From the NCBI GenBank assembly GCA_010092845.1, contig JAADYW010000125.1, positions 1 to 54,498 on the forward strand: 54,498 bases of DNA, given 5' to 3'. This stretch comes from Chloroflexota bacterium (GTDB lineage Bacteria > Chloroflexota > Anaerolineae > Aggregatilineales > J027). The notes beneath the pieces are model-generated. The model saw only the letters and a program-made list of their open reading frames with translations. It was not told the origin of the DNA and did no database searches. The translations under genes and the position numbers were made by a program. Below, one piece after another: positions 13,577 through 21,586 of the stretch. Each line of letters opens with the position of its first letter. Position 1 is the first letter of the stretch.

Positions 13577-16057
13577 TTATTCTTCTACACCATAAAGATG
13601 ACGGTAGACATCATATTGCTGGTAAATGCGAATAACATAACGCTCAGTCTCGTCGAAGGCAATAGTCTGAACGAACCGGTCAAGATCAGCCCCGGAAGAG
13701 TCCAACCAGTTGCGCGCATTGGAGGGGCCGCCGTTATAGCCGGCCAGCGCAGCATAGGGTACACCATCGACGAAATCCAATACCCAGCGAAGATAATACG
13801 TCCCGAAGCGGATGTTGATATATGGCCGATAGATATCACTGTTCTGGTAGTCCGGCCACTCGAGTTGTGTCGCGACCCACTGGCCTGTGTCTGGGATGAT
13901 TTGCATCAACCCCTGGGCAGCGGCAAAACTCGTCGCGAAGCTCTGGAACAGACTTTCTTGACGGATCAAGCTGAAGACCAAAAGAGGATCGAGTTCGTAG
14001 GTCTCTACATTCGGCAGAACCAGATCCGCATAGTGGATGGGGTAGCGAAGTCGCGCAATGTAGCTCGGCGCATCATAGGTAGATACCCCGGACATAATGA
14101 TCAAGGCGGCTGCAGCCTCGATCGAGGTGCGGTAGTTCCCGATCTCAGCATAGTAATGGGCGAGCTGATATGTCGCCAGTGGATCGTCGCTATACTCCTG
14201 ACGCAGCGTCTCGAACTCCTGGCGCGCTTCATCATAAGCCGCCAAGGCCCACAATTCGCGCCCCCGGACCATGTGAGGATCATTCTCCAGCGTATCGCTA
14301 AGAGGATAGAGAGGCCCCTCTTGCTGGATCCCAAAAGTGGAGCGTAGCCATTGTTCGGACTCCGCCAGTGCCGTCCCCTCATCGAAGTCGAACTGGTAGG
14401 CAGAGGGCGGCGTAAACGGTTCTTCACCACTCAGCAGATCACGGGCACGCAGGCTATAATACCCGCCAGGATCAGCGTCAGCCGCGCCCTCAAGCATCTG
14501 CTGGGACAACTCCGTCTGCCCCTGTTCAGCGTACAGACGCCCCAACCAGAGCAGGGCCAACGCGCGGTTTTCGCCGTCGCTGGTGTTGGCGAGCTGAGTA
14601 TAGAAATTGGTTGCCCGCTCGATCTGGCCCAGGTTAATGGCCAACGACACCGCGTCCAGCAGGCCTTCCTGAGCCCACGCGTTGCCAGGATAGTTGCTCC
14701 CCAGGATATCATAGGTGGCCATCGCTTGTTCGTAATTGCCGAGCTCATTCTCGTAGAGATAAGCGACCCGCCAGAGCGCTTCAGGGGCCTGGGGCAATTC
14801 TGGACGTTCGTCCGCAAGAGCGCTGTAGCGATTGATGGCAGATGGCGTATCACCTGACCAATAGAGCGTTCTACCCTGATCGAGCCAGGCCTCGCCAAAG
14901 AGCGGATCCTGCGGATACTGGTCCATTAAACCCTGAAAGGTGGTGTAGGCGGCTTCGTAGTTGCCCAATTCACGATAGGTGCGGCCCAGCATCAGCATTG
15001 CTTGAGCAGGAAGGGTGGTGACTTCAGTGCTATACGTATTGAGAGCGGTTATCGCATCACCATAATCCTCGTTGGCGAAGCTAATACGTGCCCGCAGCCA
15101 GTTATCAACAGGTCTCCCCGCATTCAATAGGGTCCTCATAGCTTGGTAGGCACCAACCGTCTCAGGATAGAGTTGAATCATCGCCTGCAGGCGGGCATAC
15201 CCAACATCCGGCTGGCCCCCGGCAATTTCGGCCATGCCAGCTTGATACTCGATGCTGGCACGATAGGGGGCATTCTCCGCGACCGACAGGATCGCATCGT
15301 ATTGCTCAACCGCCAAGTCATAGCGGCCCTGGTTGCTATAGCTGGCGGCAATCCGCTCTCGCAAGGCCAACAGTGGCACGATTGAGCGAGTTGCGTTCGT
15401 TGCCGCCACATAATTCTCCAATGCCAGATCCGGATTGCCCAGCGCCAGATAGGCATCACCGATTCGCTCGTAGACATAACTATCAATCACGCCCGGCCGC
15501 AATTCTAGATAGGCCTCAAAGTCAGCGATAGCAGCCTGCCAATTAAACAAGCCCAAATACGCATCACCGCGCAAGAAATGAGCGCGAACCACACGTGGGT
15601 CAGTTGGATAACGATCAATGAATTGACTCAGGGCTTGAACGGCTTGCTGGAATAACCCCTCGCGCAGGGCCGCCTGGCCCAGACCATAGTAAGCAGCGGC
15701 ATGTAGCTGAACATCTTCATCCGTCTGAGACAGAACGCACTCGTACAACGCAACTGCCAGCGTATAATTGCCGTTGAAGAGGGCGCGGTCGGCCGCACTG
15801 ATGCCATCCTGAGGTGGGAGGGTCGGCGTCGGAAGTGGGGCCGGGGTGTGTGTCAGCTCCGGTGTCGCGGTTATCCGGATTTCACCGCCGGCATCGGGTG
15901 ATGGTAATACTGCCTCGGGCGGGGTGGCAGTAACAACGATTGGTTCTGGCGTCGCGCCAAGGTCGCAACCAACCGATACCAGTAGAATCAGGGTCACAGC
16001 GAAATACAGCCAGTGTCGTAGGAAGTGTCGCAAGTACATAACCATGATTATGGACAT
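13577..16057 (-). CDS. TPR-repeat lytic transglycosylase (SLT domain), probable lipoprotein
   Basis: N-terminal hydrophobic segment LILLVSVGCDLG, multiple TPRs, C-terminal SLT domain (LVFSLIRQESLFQSFATSFAAAQGLMQIIPDTGQWVA...LAGYNGGPSNARNW). Confidence 0.88.
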   Translation of the reverse strand: MSIIMVMYLRHFLRHWLYFAVTLILLVSVGCDLGATPEPIVVTATPPEAVLPSPDAGGEIRITATPELTHTPAPLPTPTLPPQDGISAADRALFNGNYTLAVALYECVLSQTDEDVQLHAAAYYGLGQAALREGLFQQAVQALSQFIDRYPTDPRVVRAHFLRGDAYLGLFNWQAAIADFEAYLELRPGVIDSYVYERIGDAYLALGNPDLALENYVAATNATRSIVPLLALRERIAASYSNQGRYDLAVEQYDAILSVAENAPYRASIEYQAGMAEIAGGQPDVGYARLQAMIQLYPETVGAYQAMRTLLNAGRPVDNWLRARISFANEDYGDAITALNTYSTEVTTLPAQAMLMLGRTYRELGNYEAAYTTFQGLMDQYPQDPLFGEAWLDQGRTLYWSGDTPSAINRYSALADERPELPQAPEALWRVAYLYENELGNYEQAMATYDILGSNYPGNAWAQEGLLDAVSLAINLGQIERATNFYTQLANTSDGENRALALLWLGRLYAEQGQTELSQQMLEGAADADPGGYYSLRARDLLSGEEPFTPPSAYQFDFDEGTALAESEQWLRSTFGIQQEGPLYPLSDTLENDPHMVRGRELWALAAYDEARQEFETLRQEYSDDPLATYQLAHYYAEIGNYRTSIEAAAALIIMSGVSTYDAPSYIARLRYPIHYADLVLPNVETYELDPLLVFSLIRQESLFQSFATSFAAAQGLMQIIPDTGQWVATQLEWPDYQNSDIYRPYINIRFGTYYLRWVLDFVDGVPYAALAGYNGGPSNARNWLDSSGADLDRFVQTIAFDETERYVIRIYQQYDVYRHLYGVEE

Positions 16058-16175: not shown

Positions 16176-17294
16176 TCACTCCTCCACAGGATATTCGGGT
16201 TGGCGCCAACGACGGTACAGCAGGAAGACGACGCCAATAATCACACCTAACGCCAATCCGAAGACGATGCTCTGGACCAGACGCACTTCAGCCGTATTCG
16301 CCGCCTCTTCACGCTGTTCCTCAATTTCCGCCTCGAGTGTCTCGATACGTTCGCGCGACTGAATGAAAGGATGTTCATCAAGGTCCCGCCCGCCAGTCTC
16401 ATCCGTCGCCAGGACAATATCCTGCGTGGAATGGCAATCGACACAGGCACTGGTCTCAACTTGCCCGTCATGTCCCGATGCTTGTAAATCACTCGTCAGG
16501 ATATGCATGGCGCGGTCCGTGCTGCGGTGCCAGTGACAGCTATCGCAGGACTCATCAACGTGTGAAATATGCACAAAGTCATCACGGTCCTGGTCATGGC
16601 AATTCAGGCACAGTGCATCCGCGGTTTCGAAGCGAAGTTCCCCTTGATGCGGGAGATGGCAGGTATTGCAACCGAGTTGTTGCTCGCCATGAGCGCTCCG
16701 GCGCCATTCATCCACCGTCGTTTGATGGCAATCCGCACAGAGTGTTACGTCTACCGTTAGCGCAGCGGGGTCACCCTCAATCGCCTCTACTTCGGGACCA
16801 TGACATTCTAGACAGACAGTACCTTCAAGCGCTTCGCTCTCGCCAAAATCTTCGAACTGTAACTCAACGTTAAACTGCTCGACCTCGCCCTCATGGCAAT
16901 TCAGGCATGTACCCACATAACCATGGACATATTCCTCGTAGGTCTCAATGGCGAGATTCTGATGCGGGAAGTTGTTGCCGTGGCAATCGACACAGCCGAC
17001 GCCAATCTCCAGATCGTGGGATGCGTGGATGAAGTTCTTCTGAGTCTCATCAGAAATCTGGAGATCGAGCACGGTTCCATCAGGAAGGGACAAATCCTCA
17101 TCGATATTGTCATGACATACGAGGCAATAGCTATTGTCACCCACAGGCTCAGGTTCAGGATCTTCGTCGCTGCCGTCACCCCCATCCTGAGCCTGCACGG
17201 TAGGTAGAGAGACCGGCATCGCAAGAGCCCCCGCCAGGGCCAGCCCTAGCCCCAGGCAGAGGATAAGGATAGCACGGCGTCGTCGTTTATTCAT
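16176..17294 (-). CDS. Membrane-anchored multiheme c-type cytochrome (9 CXXCH)
   Basis: Signal peptide; CLVCH, CVDCH, CLNCH, CLECH, CADCH, CNTCH, CLNCH, CDSCH, CVDCH; C-terminal TM LVQSIVFGLALGVIIGVVFLLYRRW. ATG 17294 overlaps the upstream stop (ATGAATAA). Confidence 0.92.
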   Translation of the reverse strand: MNKRRRRAILILCLGLGLALAGALAMPVSLPTVQAQDGGDGSDEDPEPEPVGDNSYCLVCHDNIDEDLSLPDGTVLDLQISDETQKNFIHASHDLEIGVGCVDCHGNNFPHQNLAIETYEEYVHGYVGTCLNCHEGEVEQFNVELQFEDFGESEALEGTVCLECHGPEVEAIEGDPAALTVDVTLCADCHQTTVDEWRRSAHGEQQLGCNTCHLPHQGELRFETADALCLNCHDQDRDDFVHISHVDESCDSCHWHRSTDRAMHILTSDLQASGHDGQVETSACVDCHSTQDIVLATDETGGRDLDEHPFIQSRERIETLEAEIEEQREEAANTAEVRLVQSIVFGLALGVIIGVVFLLYRRWRQPEYPVEE

Positions 17295-18912
17295 CCGATA
17301 CCTCTTCACTTTCATTGGGAAGAATACCTAATTCAGCCTCAATCGCATCCAGTAAGGCGTCGATATAGGCATAGTTGTGAACACCCAAGCTATCATCGCC
17401 CTCGACGACTGCCAGGGCTGTGAGCACCCAGGCGGGCGCATCATCCTCAATAGCTGCACGGGCAGCTTCAATACGTGCTTGTGTACTCGCCTGGGTATCG
17501 TCGATGAAGGCTTGCATGGCGGCCGCATCTGCCTGCTCAACATGGCAGCTGGTGCAGCTATCTTCCAGGCGTTCAATACCACTAGCATCACCGGGGAGCA
17601 CCGGCAGGAACGTATGTGTTGGGCGCGTCTCGTAAGTTCCCACCGGCACTGACGACATATGACACGTCAGACAATCAGGGCCGTCCTCGGCCTCAAAATG
17701 CGCGGATGGGATCCCCTCAACTTCTTCAACCAGGGTCTCACCTTCATATAGCTCCCGCACAGGGTAGTGCACGAACTCATCGCTGACGGCTTGATGGCAA
17801 CTGACGCACATATCATAGGGCGCCTGGTCCAACATATAGTCAGTCTCTGCTGGGTCTGCATGGGGATTGTGGCAGGTCGTGCAGGTCACACCGTATTGCG
17901 CCGTATCTACCGATACCGGTTCCGGCGGATCGCCCTCACGGTCACCATCTTCGTGGGCGGCAATCAAGGCCTGGTTACGCTGGTAGTCAGCGCTATGGCA
18001 CTGCAAACAGCTCTCATTCGCCGCATCAGGATTGTCCTGGATACTGGTCAATGCCGTTGCGTGGCCAGAAATAAACCATTCGTTGTATTGCATGTTGGGC
18101 ATGGCGGCATGCCCGGTCGGCCACCAATGTGACTCATCCGGTGGCAGGTAGATACTGAAGACGTCTTCAGCCAACAGATCGTCACCGGGTAGATAATCTA
18201 CGGGGAAGGGATGGTTGTCGTCTGGCTCGACGCCACGATTGTGGCATTGCCCGCAGATCTGGGGATCGGTGCCACTATTAATCGTGGTCCGCAACTCCTC
18301 AAGCTCCCGATCACTGGGGCTATCGCCAGCCTCTTCCGCGACCTCGGCATGAACACTACCCGGGCCGTGGCAGGATTCGCACGAAACGCCAGCATCTTCC
18401 CAGCGCCCACGTCGCACATTTAGCCCAACGGTGTGGCAACCAGCACAATTCTGAACGAAATCATAAGCTGGCGCTGGCCACTCGTCGGCAGGTGTGAAGG
18501 CGATCCATTCTGCGTCTTGCGTGCTCCATTTGGCCGGTAAGACCATGTATTCGTTGCGGTCTACCTCAATCGCATAGGCTTGCAATCGGCGCCCAGACCC
18601 AATCGCGAGGACCACATCCTCGGCCGTGACCGGCCGGGCTTCGTCCTCGCCTGGCAGCACCAGTGTGAGCAGATCACCGCCTTGCTCAAAATCTGCCAGG
18701 ATCGGGTCCTTATCGCGCTCGACCTCTTGAAGAGCTAGTGCATGGGCGGTATCAGCGTGCGCACGCGCAGTATCAGCGTGGCACCCACTGCACTCACGCG
18801 TCCCGACAAACTCTGCTTCTTCGTCATCATCTTGGGCATGAATGAGGCTACTGATAAGAAGAAGACCCAAACAAAAAAAAACCAGGCTTGCCACGCGCAA
18901 ATATTTTCGCAT
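17287..18912 (-). CDS. Secreted multiheme c-type cytochrome (9 CXXCH), cytochrome c554-like
   Basis: Signal peptide MRKYLRVASLVFFCLGLLLISSLIHAQ; CSGCH, CAGCH, CESCH, CGQCH, CLQCH, CTTCH, CVSCH, CLTCH, CTSCH. ATG at 18912 preferred over GTG at 18921. Confidence 0.92.
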   Translation of the reverse strand: MRKYLRVASLVFFCLGLLLISSLIHAQDDDEEAEFVGTRECSGCHADTARAHADTAHALALQEVERDKDPILADFEQGGDLLTLVLPGEDEARPVTAEDVVLAIGSGRRLQAYAIEVDRNEYMVLPAKWSTQDAEWIAFTPADEWPAPAYDFVQNCAGCHTVGLNVRRGRWEDAGVSCESCHGPGSVHAEVAEEAGDSPSDRELEELRTTINSGTDPQICGQCHNRGVEPDDNHPFPVDYLPGDDLLAEDVFSIYLPPDESHWWPTGHAAMPNMQYNEWFISGHATALTSIQDNPDAANESCLQCHSADYQRNQALIAAHEDGDREGDPPEPVSVDTAQYGVTCTTCHNPHADPAETDYMLDQAPYDMCVSCHQAVSDEFVHYPVRELYEGETLVEEVEGIPSAHFEAEDGPDCLTCHMSSVPVGTYETRPTHTFLPVLPGDASGIERLEDSCTSCHVEQADAAAMQAFIDDTQASTQARIEAARAAIEDDAPAWVLTALAVVEGDDSLGVHNYAYIDALLDAIEAELGILPNESEEVSDE

Positions 18913-18983
18913 TGAAGCCACACTCTTTCATTCATCAAACATGTATAACTATAGCAATAGTAGAAAATCCTCCCCAGCTCTGA

Positions 18984-19001
18984 AAGTGACGTTTGTCACT
19001 T
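18984..19001. promoter_or_regulatory. CRP/FNR-superfamily-like operator in the divergent cytochrome promoter region
   Basis: AAGTGAC-GTTT-GTCACTT, perfect 7-bp inverted repeat with core GTGA-N6-TCAC, between two divergent cytochrome transcription units. Confidence 0.5.
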
Positions 19002-19080
19002 GCTCATATCACAATGCAACATGTATGCTTGTAGACGTATATAGGGAAATCGAGGGGACGACGGTATCTACCGACATCAC

Positions 19081-19771
19081 ATGCATCCGCGTCGCTGCTT
19101 TGGTTGGCTATGTATTGCTGGCGGTTTGTTGCTGGTACTGGGTATGCTGCTGCTTGTCAGGAGCAACGGGCCCGAAACGCAACCAACTGCCTTAGCACAT
19201 GCTGAACCAAGCTCGCCTGGTCAGGTTACAATTGATCCATTGGCTTCAGACACCCCATGTCTCGAATGCCATTCGGTCAATCGTAGCCAGGTGTTGCCTG
19301 TAGTACCAGAGACCTCGCACCCCGATCACGACCTGATATCCCGTACTGAAGCTCAGTTTTCTAGAGTCGGACAACACCTGCTGCAACAGGACCACCTTCT
19401 GGACCGGCGGTACCGTGCACCTATGCACGCGTTTTGGCAAGTTCACCTCCAAGGGTTACCGTCTGATGCGTCTACAGCGTCCAGCGCCCTGGCACGCCTC
19501 GTACGCATCGAGCAGCAGATTTATCGCATCGACTATGAAATACAGTCGGGCCGACTGGACAGGTCGTATAACAACAAGGCGATGGCCGTGCGGGCTGCAT
19601 TGCAGACAACACAGCGGTTCACGCCTGTACACCATCAGACTGATAGGGTTGTTATCACCACCGGTCAAATCCGGCCTGCCGACCAATGGTCTGATGTGAA
19701 GCCTGCACAATCCGGCAGTCGATCTTGCGTACCCCGTGGTCCTCCGACAACGGGGTGGACATGTCGAATAG
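19081..19771 (+). CDS. Signal-anchored monoheme cytochrome-like protein; possible frameshift near 19700
   Basis: N-terminal TM (CFGWLCIAGGLLLVLGMLLLV) and one CLECH motif. Listed frame continues to 19890 with poor-looking sequence; an alternative frame from about 19700 gives SLHNPAVDLAYPVVLRQRGGHVE* ending at 19771. Confidence 0.5.
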
Positions 19772-19907
19772 TGCAACCAGGAGATTGGTCATCTGTTGCT
19801 GTCTACAGGTGGTCGTCTCCTTTTTGTTTTTCACGTTTGGGGGCTCCCGGCCAGCTCGCAGGAATGGCTGGGACTGTAGATGTTTCTTGAAAGGAGAACC
19901 TCTACCA

Positions 19908-21586
19908 TGCGACGTCGTTTTGCGATGTTAGTTTTTATAGTAGGCATCATCCTGGTTCTCGGTGTCTTCGCCGCCACGGCTTCTGATGAGCCGGCGCCAA
20001 CAAGTGACCACACCGGCCAGACACCACCAGAGGATGCTGAATATGTGGGTCAGCAGACATGCTTCACCTGTCATAGCCAGACCCATCGCGACTGGGATGA
20101 CACCTTCCATGCCACCACAATCCAGGATGTAAGCGCTAATCCTGATATCGTCGTTGCTGATTTCAGCACCGGCGAGGAGTTCCGCACCCTGGAAGATGGT
20201 ACTGTCTACACCCTGGAAGATGTCGACTATACTATTGGCTCGAAGTATCGTCAGCGCTTCATTATGGAGACCGAGGGTGGCTACATGGTGCTACCCGGCC
20301 AGTGGATGCGTGACACGGAGAACTGGATCGAGTTCGCCGCAGCACCATCTATGGTAGAGGCCGGCTGCGTTAGCTGCCACGGCACCGGCTACAACCACGA
20401 AGATAAGACCTTCAGCGAGTTCTCGATCACCTGCGAAGCCTGCCACGGCCCGGGTAGCACCCACGTGGAAATGGCCAGCAATCTACCCGAAAACGTTGAC
20501 CCCGTCAGCGACGAGGTCCTGGCGGTCCGTAACTCGATCGTCAGCACCGTCGATTCCAACGTATGCGGCCAGTGCCACAGCGTTGGTATGGCCCCTGACG
20601 GCCACCCGGCACCGGTTGGCTACGAGGTCGGCGGCCCATTCGACGAGACAATGTACGTCCACGCCCAACCAACCGGCGAGATGGATGATCCCTTCTGGTG
20701 GCCAAACACCGGCCATAATGATCAGCACTTCGAGAAGTTCCCGCGCCAGCAGTGGATTACCCTGGCGGGTTCCGCGCACGGTAATGCCCTGGCCTCCATC
20801 GTTGAGCACGATCACGGCGCTGAGTACTGCCTGCCTTGCCACAGCACGGACTACGCCTTCCAGGACGACACCTTCCCCGAAGATGTTGTAACCATGGAGA
20901 ACGCTCAGTTCAGTATCACCTGTGTCCACTGCCACTCGCCGCACGGTGAAGCCCATATCGAGGACCAGCTCACGCAAGAATCGTATCAACTGTGTGTAAG
21001 CTGCCACACAGGCACCAGCAGTGGCGGACGGCCAATCCGCGTCGGCGGTACGGTCCACCATCCGATGCGTGAGATGTTTGAAGGTATCTCATTCCTGAAT
21101 CTGGAACCGAACCCCAGCCCGCACTTCGCCAATGAGGCCTACGGCCCGATTTGCTCGTCGTGCCACATGCCCGCAACCGCCAGGAACGCCTACTTCGGCG
21201 ACGTGGCCACCCATACCTTCCAGCTTATCCTCCCCACCGAGGCCGTGGAAGGCCAGCCGGATAGCTGCACGAGCTGCCATGACTTGACCCACGACGAGCT
21301 GACCCCAGAAGACCTGACCTTCTACGTCGAAGAGATCCAGGCCGATACTGAGGATCGCCTCGCCGATCTGCGGGCCGACCTGGAAGAGATCCAGTCTGCA
21401 CACCCCGAGTGGGAGTCTGATGCTGAGGACAAGTCAGAGCTTCAGCAGATGTCAGAGCGGGTCCACACCCTGCTATCCTTCGTTGAGGCCGATGGCAGTC
21501 TGGGTGTTCATAACCCCGGCTACACCGATGACATCCTGACCGAGGCCGAAGATCTCCTCGACGAGATGTTTGAGATGGAAGAGTAG
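19908..21586 (+). CDS. Secreted multiheme c-type cytochrome (9 CXXCH), paralogue of 17287-18912
   Basis: Signal peptide MRRRFAMLVFIVGIILVLGVFAATA; CFTCH, CVSCH, CEACH, CGQCH, CLPCH, CVHCH, CVSCH, CSSCH, CTSCH. AAAGGAGA upstream of ATG 19908. Confidence 0.93.

Follow-up and report, generated by a model that had tools for sequence, protein, structure and literature searches.

Results

A divergent cluster of multiheme cytochrome genes

A stretch of 54,498 nucleotides from an uncultured Chloroflexota bacterium (assembly GCA_010092845.1, contig JAADYW010000125.1, positions 1 to 54,498), the whole of which is referred to here as the window, carries a divergent cluster of multiheme cytochrome genes at positions 16176 to 21586. 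Four open reading frames (ORFs), designated A to D, were analyzed, and two of them, B and D, encode full-length relatives of the cell-surface cytochrome OcwA with altered heme pockets. The features of the region are as follows.

A: 16176 to 17294, minus strand; nonaheme cytochrome resembling NrfB, MtrA and DmsE, with a signal anchor at the N-terminus and a transmembrane (TM) helix at the C-terminus (start of the longest ORF at 17315)
B: 17287 to 18912, minus strand; secreted nonaheme OcwA-like cytochrome, identified by nine CXXCH motifs and by PDB, profile and Foldseek matches (alternative GTG start at 18921)
Intergenic region: 18913 to 19080, unstranded; about 170 bases common to the divergent B-A and C-D transcription units
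C: 19081 to 19890, plus strand; small ORF with a signal anchor and one CXXCH, directly 5' of D; uncertain as a gene
D: 19907 to 21586, plus strand; second secreted nonaheme OcwA-like cytochrome, of a separate clade and diverged from B

An earlier note, made from the sequence alone, had described three nine-heme proteins and one monoheme protein, and the motif count agrees: A, B and D have nine CXXCH motifs each and C has one (28 in total), and a motif scan of A, B and D found no near-miss heme motifs. When the same region was shuffled and read in six frames, the mean number of CXXCH motifs was 0.36 and the maximum was 2; the whole 54 kb contains 37 in six frames. The same note had regarded B and D as paralogues. 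This is borne out by the EYMVLP/GYMVLP, CE(S/A)CHGPGS, CGQCH, WWP and SLGVHN features that they have in common, and by an identity of 40–41% by tblastn (37% in an 8-row alignment).

The most likely starts of B and D are at 18912 and 19907. The most likely start of A is the ATG at 17294, which lies inside the last codons of B; the resulting 8-bp start/stop overlap, ATGAATAA, together with an AGAGG upstream, suggests that the translation of B and A is coupled. No promoter-like match was found in 18913 to 19080.

B and D are related to OcwA over their full length

In PDB searches, B matched OcwA (6i5b) over residues 35–531 with an E-value of 3.8e-49 and D matched it over nearly the whole length with an E-value of 6.8e-50, at about 30% identity, and a 20-sequence profile of the B/D family reached 9.3e-98. 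OcwA is the nonaheme outer-cell-wall cytochrome and cell-surface terminal reductase of Thermincola potens, a monoderm; it exchanges electrons with electrodes and shuttles, reduces nitrite slowly, and reacts with hydroxylamine (PMC6703420). The CXXCH motifs of B and D align one to one and in order with the nine of OcwA, and the proteins also resemble it in the GVHN near their C-terminus and in the lack of a TM anchor; a beta domain and a C-terminal helix bundle are probably shared as well. The second-best PDB match of the profile was OmhA (6qvm), the undecaheme S-layer cytochrome of Carboxydothermus ferrireducens. OmhA resembles B and D in its C-terminal five-heme and helix region but differs in its eleven hemes, and the match was weaker and split (E-values of 2e-23 and 4e-22). 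Octaheme nitrite reductase (ONR; 6e-15), NrfA (5e-10), cytochrome c554 and MccA were far weaker in the same search.

The AlphaFold model of B was based on an 8-row alignment and, with a mean pLDDT of 49, is too weak for heme placement. Confidence is adequate only for the beta domain and for the helices at the C-terminus, two features to which the description of OcwA draws attention (PMC6703420). The top Foldseek match of this weak model was 6i5b, with an E-value of 5e-16 and a TM-score of only 0.27.

Three other identities were considered. The proteins do not fit NrfA nitrite reductase, a pentaheme enzyme with a CXXCK catalytic heme (CXXCH in some) and an Arg/Tyr/His active site: all nine motifs are CXXCH with no CXXCK and the similarity to NrfA is limited to the C-terminal part. 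Hydroxylamine oxidoreductase, an octaheme protein with a tyrosine cross-linked P460 heme, is rejected because there are nine hemes here and because it was absent among the PDB matches of the B/D profile. Cytochrome c554 is ruled out by heme count and by the best matches. The term "c554-like" used in the earlier note is apt for the first four hemes and not for the whole protein, which is OcwA-like (a c554 half joined to an NrfA half).

The heme ligands are largely conserved but the pockets are altered

The OcwA numbering was transferred by means of the His-His pairs of the 6i5b construct, 252/253 and 351/352, which are offset by 29 from the published 281/282 and 380/381. In a ligand alignment of 39 Chloroflexota rows, 37 of them distinct, the proximal histidines align in all rows except a D orthologue without the heme-2 stretch (L005), and the residues corresponding to OcwA H67, H200, H293, H345, H424 and H508 are invariant (39/39). 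These six histidines, which are common to OcwA and its Chloroflexota relatives, would be the distal ligands of six bis-His hemes, with a tentative assignment to the individual hemes.

At three sites B, D or both differ from OcwA. The first is Met402, which is replaced by His in all 39 rows. Because the spacing from Met402 to the following CXXCH is the same as in ONR (HDKAGVQC vs MYKAGVTC), it is probably Met402 that serves OcwA heme 9 as its methionine ligand, an assignment made from its place and from ONR and not from the coordinates, and heme 9 is probably bis-His in the Chloroflexota proteins. The second is the heme-2 pocket, where the His-His pair (H281/H282) is lost in both B and D; most B-type proteins have NMQ(F/Y)NEW here, and among the rows inspected His-His is kept only in L006. 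The third is the heme-5 pocket, in which H380 is invariant in all rows and residue 381 is His in D (VHHP) and Tyr in B (VHYP). The D orthologue noted above, from metagenome-assembled genome (MAG) PMV_1.47 (L005:1948-3276), has eight hemes and lacks both the heme-2 stretch and the beta domain, as a result of either a natural deletion or an assembly error.

A is a heme wire with its own membrane anchor

The hydrophobic C-terminal TM helix of A comprises residues 342–360 of the 379-aa ORF and is followed by basic residues. Together with the N-terminal signal anchor, this places the hemes outside, which is the topology that had been proposed in the earlier note. A matches Cytochrome_C7/c3 in Pfam, and its NCBIfam matches to DmsE (4e-10), NrfH and NrfB are all weak and fall below the curated cut-offs. 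A 20-sequence profile of A had its best PDB match in 6r2q_A (8.7e-19), which we take to be MtrA, chain A of the Shewanella MtrCAB complex, the deposited name being odd; it also matched OcwA, as well as NrfB (2ozy, 2.6e-11). The description that suits A best is that of a wire like NrfB or MtrA, a relative and not a member of the NrfB, MtrA and DmsE families. Despite the profile similarity, it differs from these soluble or porin-embedded wires in having a TM helix of its own and no porin gene beside it. The AlphaFold model of A, from 2 rows and with a mean pLDDT of 40, is too weak for heme placement.

B and A are joined to a quinone module in related genomes

The relatives were searched in a set of 61 genomes of the same order, own genome included. 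B/D-like genes were found in 32 of these and A-like genes in 40. An A-like match lies on the same strand within 1.2 kb downstream of the OcwA-like gene, or is fused to it, at 42 of 50 OcwA-like places; four of the eight exceptions are genes of the D clade, and the rest are at contig edges, separated or lone. About 18 places are single open frames of about 740–900 aa. Those that were read are mostly B-A fusions with 17 hemes, about 820 aa long, with some of 13 hemes, and end in a C-terminal TM helix. Such naturally fused proteins give good grounds for a joint function of B and A, and in the window, where the two genes are separate, their products may likewise form a complex.

Of the 21 B-A loci that were mapped, 19 continue into a quinone module, consisting of NrfC and NrfD at nine loci and of a b561-type cytochrome b with a monoheme domain at ten. 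The modules were assigned from gene maps and tblastn, using Pfam on representatives and similarity to these for the others. The module is lacking at the other two loci, in the window and at L082, whose genomes each encode an 8-heme A-paralogue-NrfC-NrfD unit at another place (on contig C190 here, and at L099 in genome G052). In the genome under study NrfD is found on two contigs, C190 and C253. The C190 unit (L067:3-6600) consists of a triple-rhodanese protein, a 10-heme protein, the 8-heme A-paralogue, NrfC and NrfD. The A-paralogue-NrfC-NrfD order recurs in G044 (L097) and G052 (L099), with the rhodanese protein also in G044.

In a phylum-wide sample of 301 genomes, B-like genes were found in three, own genome included, at E ≤ 1e-20, and the B family is therefore rare outside the order. 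No description of B-A-NrfCD units or of 17-heme fusions in Chloroflexota was found in the open-access literature. Genome G001 of the same genus, which is 95% complete, is without A, B and D, and the cluster is accessory within the genus. In genus g5, genes that look like [NiFe] hydrogenase genes, judged from sequence only, lie near B-A modules (L071:9285-13192, L079:12177-14819). A TPR-lytic transglycosylase gene lies directly downstream of A in the window (13577-16057, minus strand). A functional tie between it and B-A is probably absent, as the gene occurs in 57 of the 61 genomes and adjoins B-A only here and in G037 (L075).

The D clade and ORF C

D falls in a clade of four genomes (support 100/99), together with genes of G002, G003 and G056, all of which hold B-type modules as well. 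D lacks both an A partner and a TM anchor. At L004:5264-11488, in Centralia MAG 208, the D orthologue is flanked by a 10-heme protein and by a 7-heme protein whose N-terminus is NapC/NirT-like; a 9+9 pair and a 17-heme fusion also lie beside it.

ORF C is a doubtful gene. Its positional counterparts 5' of D orthologues have two hemes in L003 and none in L005, its similarity to the positional counterpart was not significant (E-value of 0.26), and no family match was found for it. The codon-position GC in its second half is unlike that of the neighboring genes, and a search of all three frames for a frameshift gave no better frame. This poor conservation, and the lack of A, B and D in G001 of the same genus, would fit a cluster without a dedicated respiratory role, which serves to store heme or buffer redox changes in general or is decaying in part, with a degenerate ORF C. 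That explanation seems very improbable to us, given that the heme motifs and distal histidines of B and D are conserved across distant relatives and that the linkage of B-A to the quinone module is conserved too.

Proposed electron path

We favor, with moderate confidence, a model in which B and A form a membrane-tethered OcwA-type heme relay that passes electrons from quinol to an acceptor outside the cell. Electrons would leave quinol through an NrfD/NrfC module, presumably the one encoded on C190, and be handed to A, the nonaheme wire whose C-terminal helix anchors it in the cytoplasmic membrane. A would then reduce B, the exported OcwA-like protein, and B, presumably located at the cell surface, could donate to a mineral, a shuttle or another cytochrome. 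The most likely place of D, a soluble component, would be further out in the chain, as an additional outer carrier, although our confidence in this placement is lower. The broad idea of the earlier note, a conduit that carries electrons outside the cell and has a partner anchored in the membrane, is supported, the closest solved relative being the surface reductase of a monoderm. Two of its further suggestions fared less well. The conduit does not seem to be self-contained, since B-A is joined to a quinone module in relatives, the module of this genome is on C190, and the System I ccm genes, including CcmF, are on C191. There is also no direct support for paralogues on opposite sides of a redox chain, as B pairs with A, whereas D has no A and falls in a small clade of its own.

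Several observations weigh against this relay. No C-terminal anchor or wall-sorting motif was seen in B or D, as would suit a surface location; many relatives of B have a C-terminal TM helix of their own. Heme-to-heme distances cannot be modelled from the predictions of A and B, no quinone module stands beside B-A in the window, and the NrfABCD-like gene order also suits a reductase of a soluble substrate.

The last point can be extended to an alternative in which B, and D with it, would be reductases of the NrfA/MccA superfamily whose substrate is a soluble oxyanion of nitrogen or sulfur in the wall space, with A as an NrfB-like donor and NrfCD as the quinol dehydrogenase, as in NrfABCD and MccACD. 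In the relatives, as in those systems, a single operon encodes an NrfCD quinone module, a wire resembling NrfB and a terminal protein of the NrfA superfamily, and the order B-A-NrfC-NrfD in the relatives mirrors NrfA-NrfB-NrfC-NrfD (PMC8076601). The match of the second half of B and D to NrfA, ONR and MccA, the invariant His380 in the heme-5 pocket, the triple-rhodanese and 10-heme proteins adjoining the C190 unit, and the slow nitrite reductase activity of OcwA itself (PMC6703420) are all consistent with such an enzyme. However, the His-His pocket of OcwA heme 2 is absent from both proteins, the terminal protein has an OcwA-type pocket and nine CXXCH motifs with no CXXCK, and the wire, which in some cases forms a single chain with the terminal protein, is anchored in the membrane at its C-terminus. 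Moreover, over the full length the best match is OcwA, followed by OmhA, two proteins tied to electrodes or to the reduction of Fe(III); ONR and NrfA match far more weakly. We regard an oxyanion reductase as the main rival but an unlikely one.

The relay proposed here also differs from OcwA as it is known, in that B is encoded with a TM-anchored partner. Other multiheme cytochromes of Chloroflexota for which surface electron transfer has been proposed are those of Ardenticatena maritima and of Anaerolineales MAGs; in the portions of the reports covered here, the 7-heme ARMA_0580 and the very large multiheme cytochromes are presented neither as OcwA-like proteins nor as B-A-NrfCD units.

Phototrophy genes and the direction of electron flow

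Contig C253 (L093:1184-8884, L104:13940-19658) encodes a fused PufL/M type II reaction center (NCBIfam 3.7e-254; best PDB match 8iug), a tetraheme reaction-center cytochrome, BchX, BchZ, BchC and BchG, the BchC match being slightly below its cut-off. The NrfD gene on this contig adjoins ActD/ActE-like genes and is probably part of alternative complex III. A fused reaction center with alternative complex III has been reported in Chloroflexi bin CP2_42A, outside the classical phototrophs (PMC5826079). The reaction center occurs in only 3 of the 61 genomes, own genome included, and the copy in G004, of the same family, is 80% identical. In view of these genes, the tetranucleotide profile of C253, which resembles that of the window (r 0.93), and the reaction center of G004, the organism is probably a phototroph, if the binning is correct. 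Multiheme Pfam searches of the genome gave results above cut-off only on C30 and C190 and missed the C253 reaction-center cytochrome, so they are not exhaustive. A heme-copper oxidase is encoded on C281.

This background raises the alternative that the conduit runs inward, with B and D taking electrons from an outside donor (such as Fe(II), a mineral or a neighboring cell) and A handing them on, either into the quinone pool or into the photosynthetic reaction center. Besides the C253 genes and their tetranucleotide match to the window, such a direction would agree with the ability of NrfD-type modules to act as cytochrome:quinone reductases (Qrc, Nhc; PMC8076601) and with the cathodic electron transfer of Ardenticatena (PMC5808234). 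On the other hand, the reaction center is present in 3 of 61 genomes compared with 32 of 61 for the OcwA-like proteins, which argues that the module did not arise for phototrophy, and there is no genetic link between the conduit genes and the phototrophy genes. We therefore consider an inward conduit distinctly improbable, and the outward relay remains the reading that we prefer. A specific form, in which a single-membrane member of the Chloroflexota would carry out phototrophic electron uptake through OcwA-like B, A and D and NrfCD to the quinone pool and a fused-LM reaction center, without an outer-membrane porin-cytochrome complex, is slightly less probable still.

Significance

The OcwA kind of cytochrome is already known; what is new is its occurrence in Chloroflexota, the operon that links B-A to a quinone module, the naturally occurring fusions, the alterations of the heme pockets and the probably phototrophic host. 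The passage of electrons through the wall of single-membrane cells is known in outline from a few Firmicutes only. The recurrent operon of the relatives, together with the 17-heme fusions, joins an OcwA-like terminal protein, a membrane-anchored wire and a quinone module. The B-A system would thus provide a concrete and expressible means to test the partner of an OcwA-type reductase, and with the phototrophic background of this genome, light-driven extracellular electron exchange becomes a testable question.

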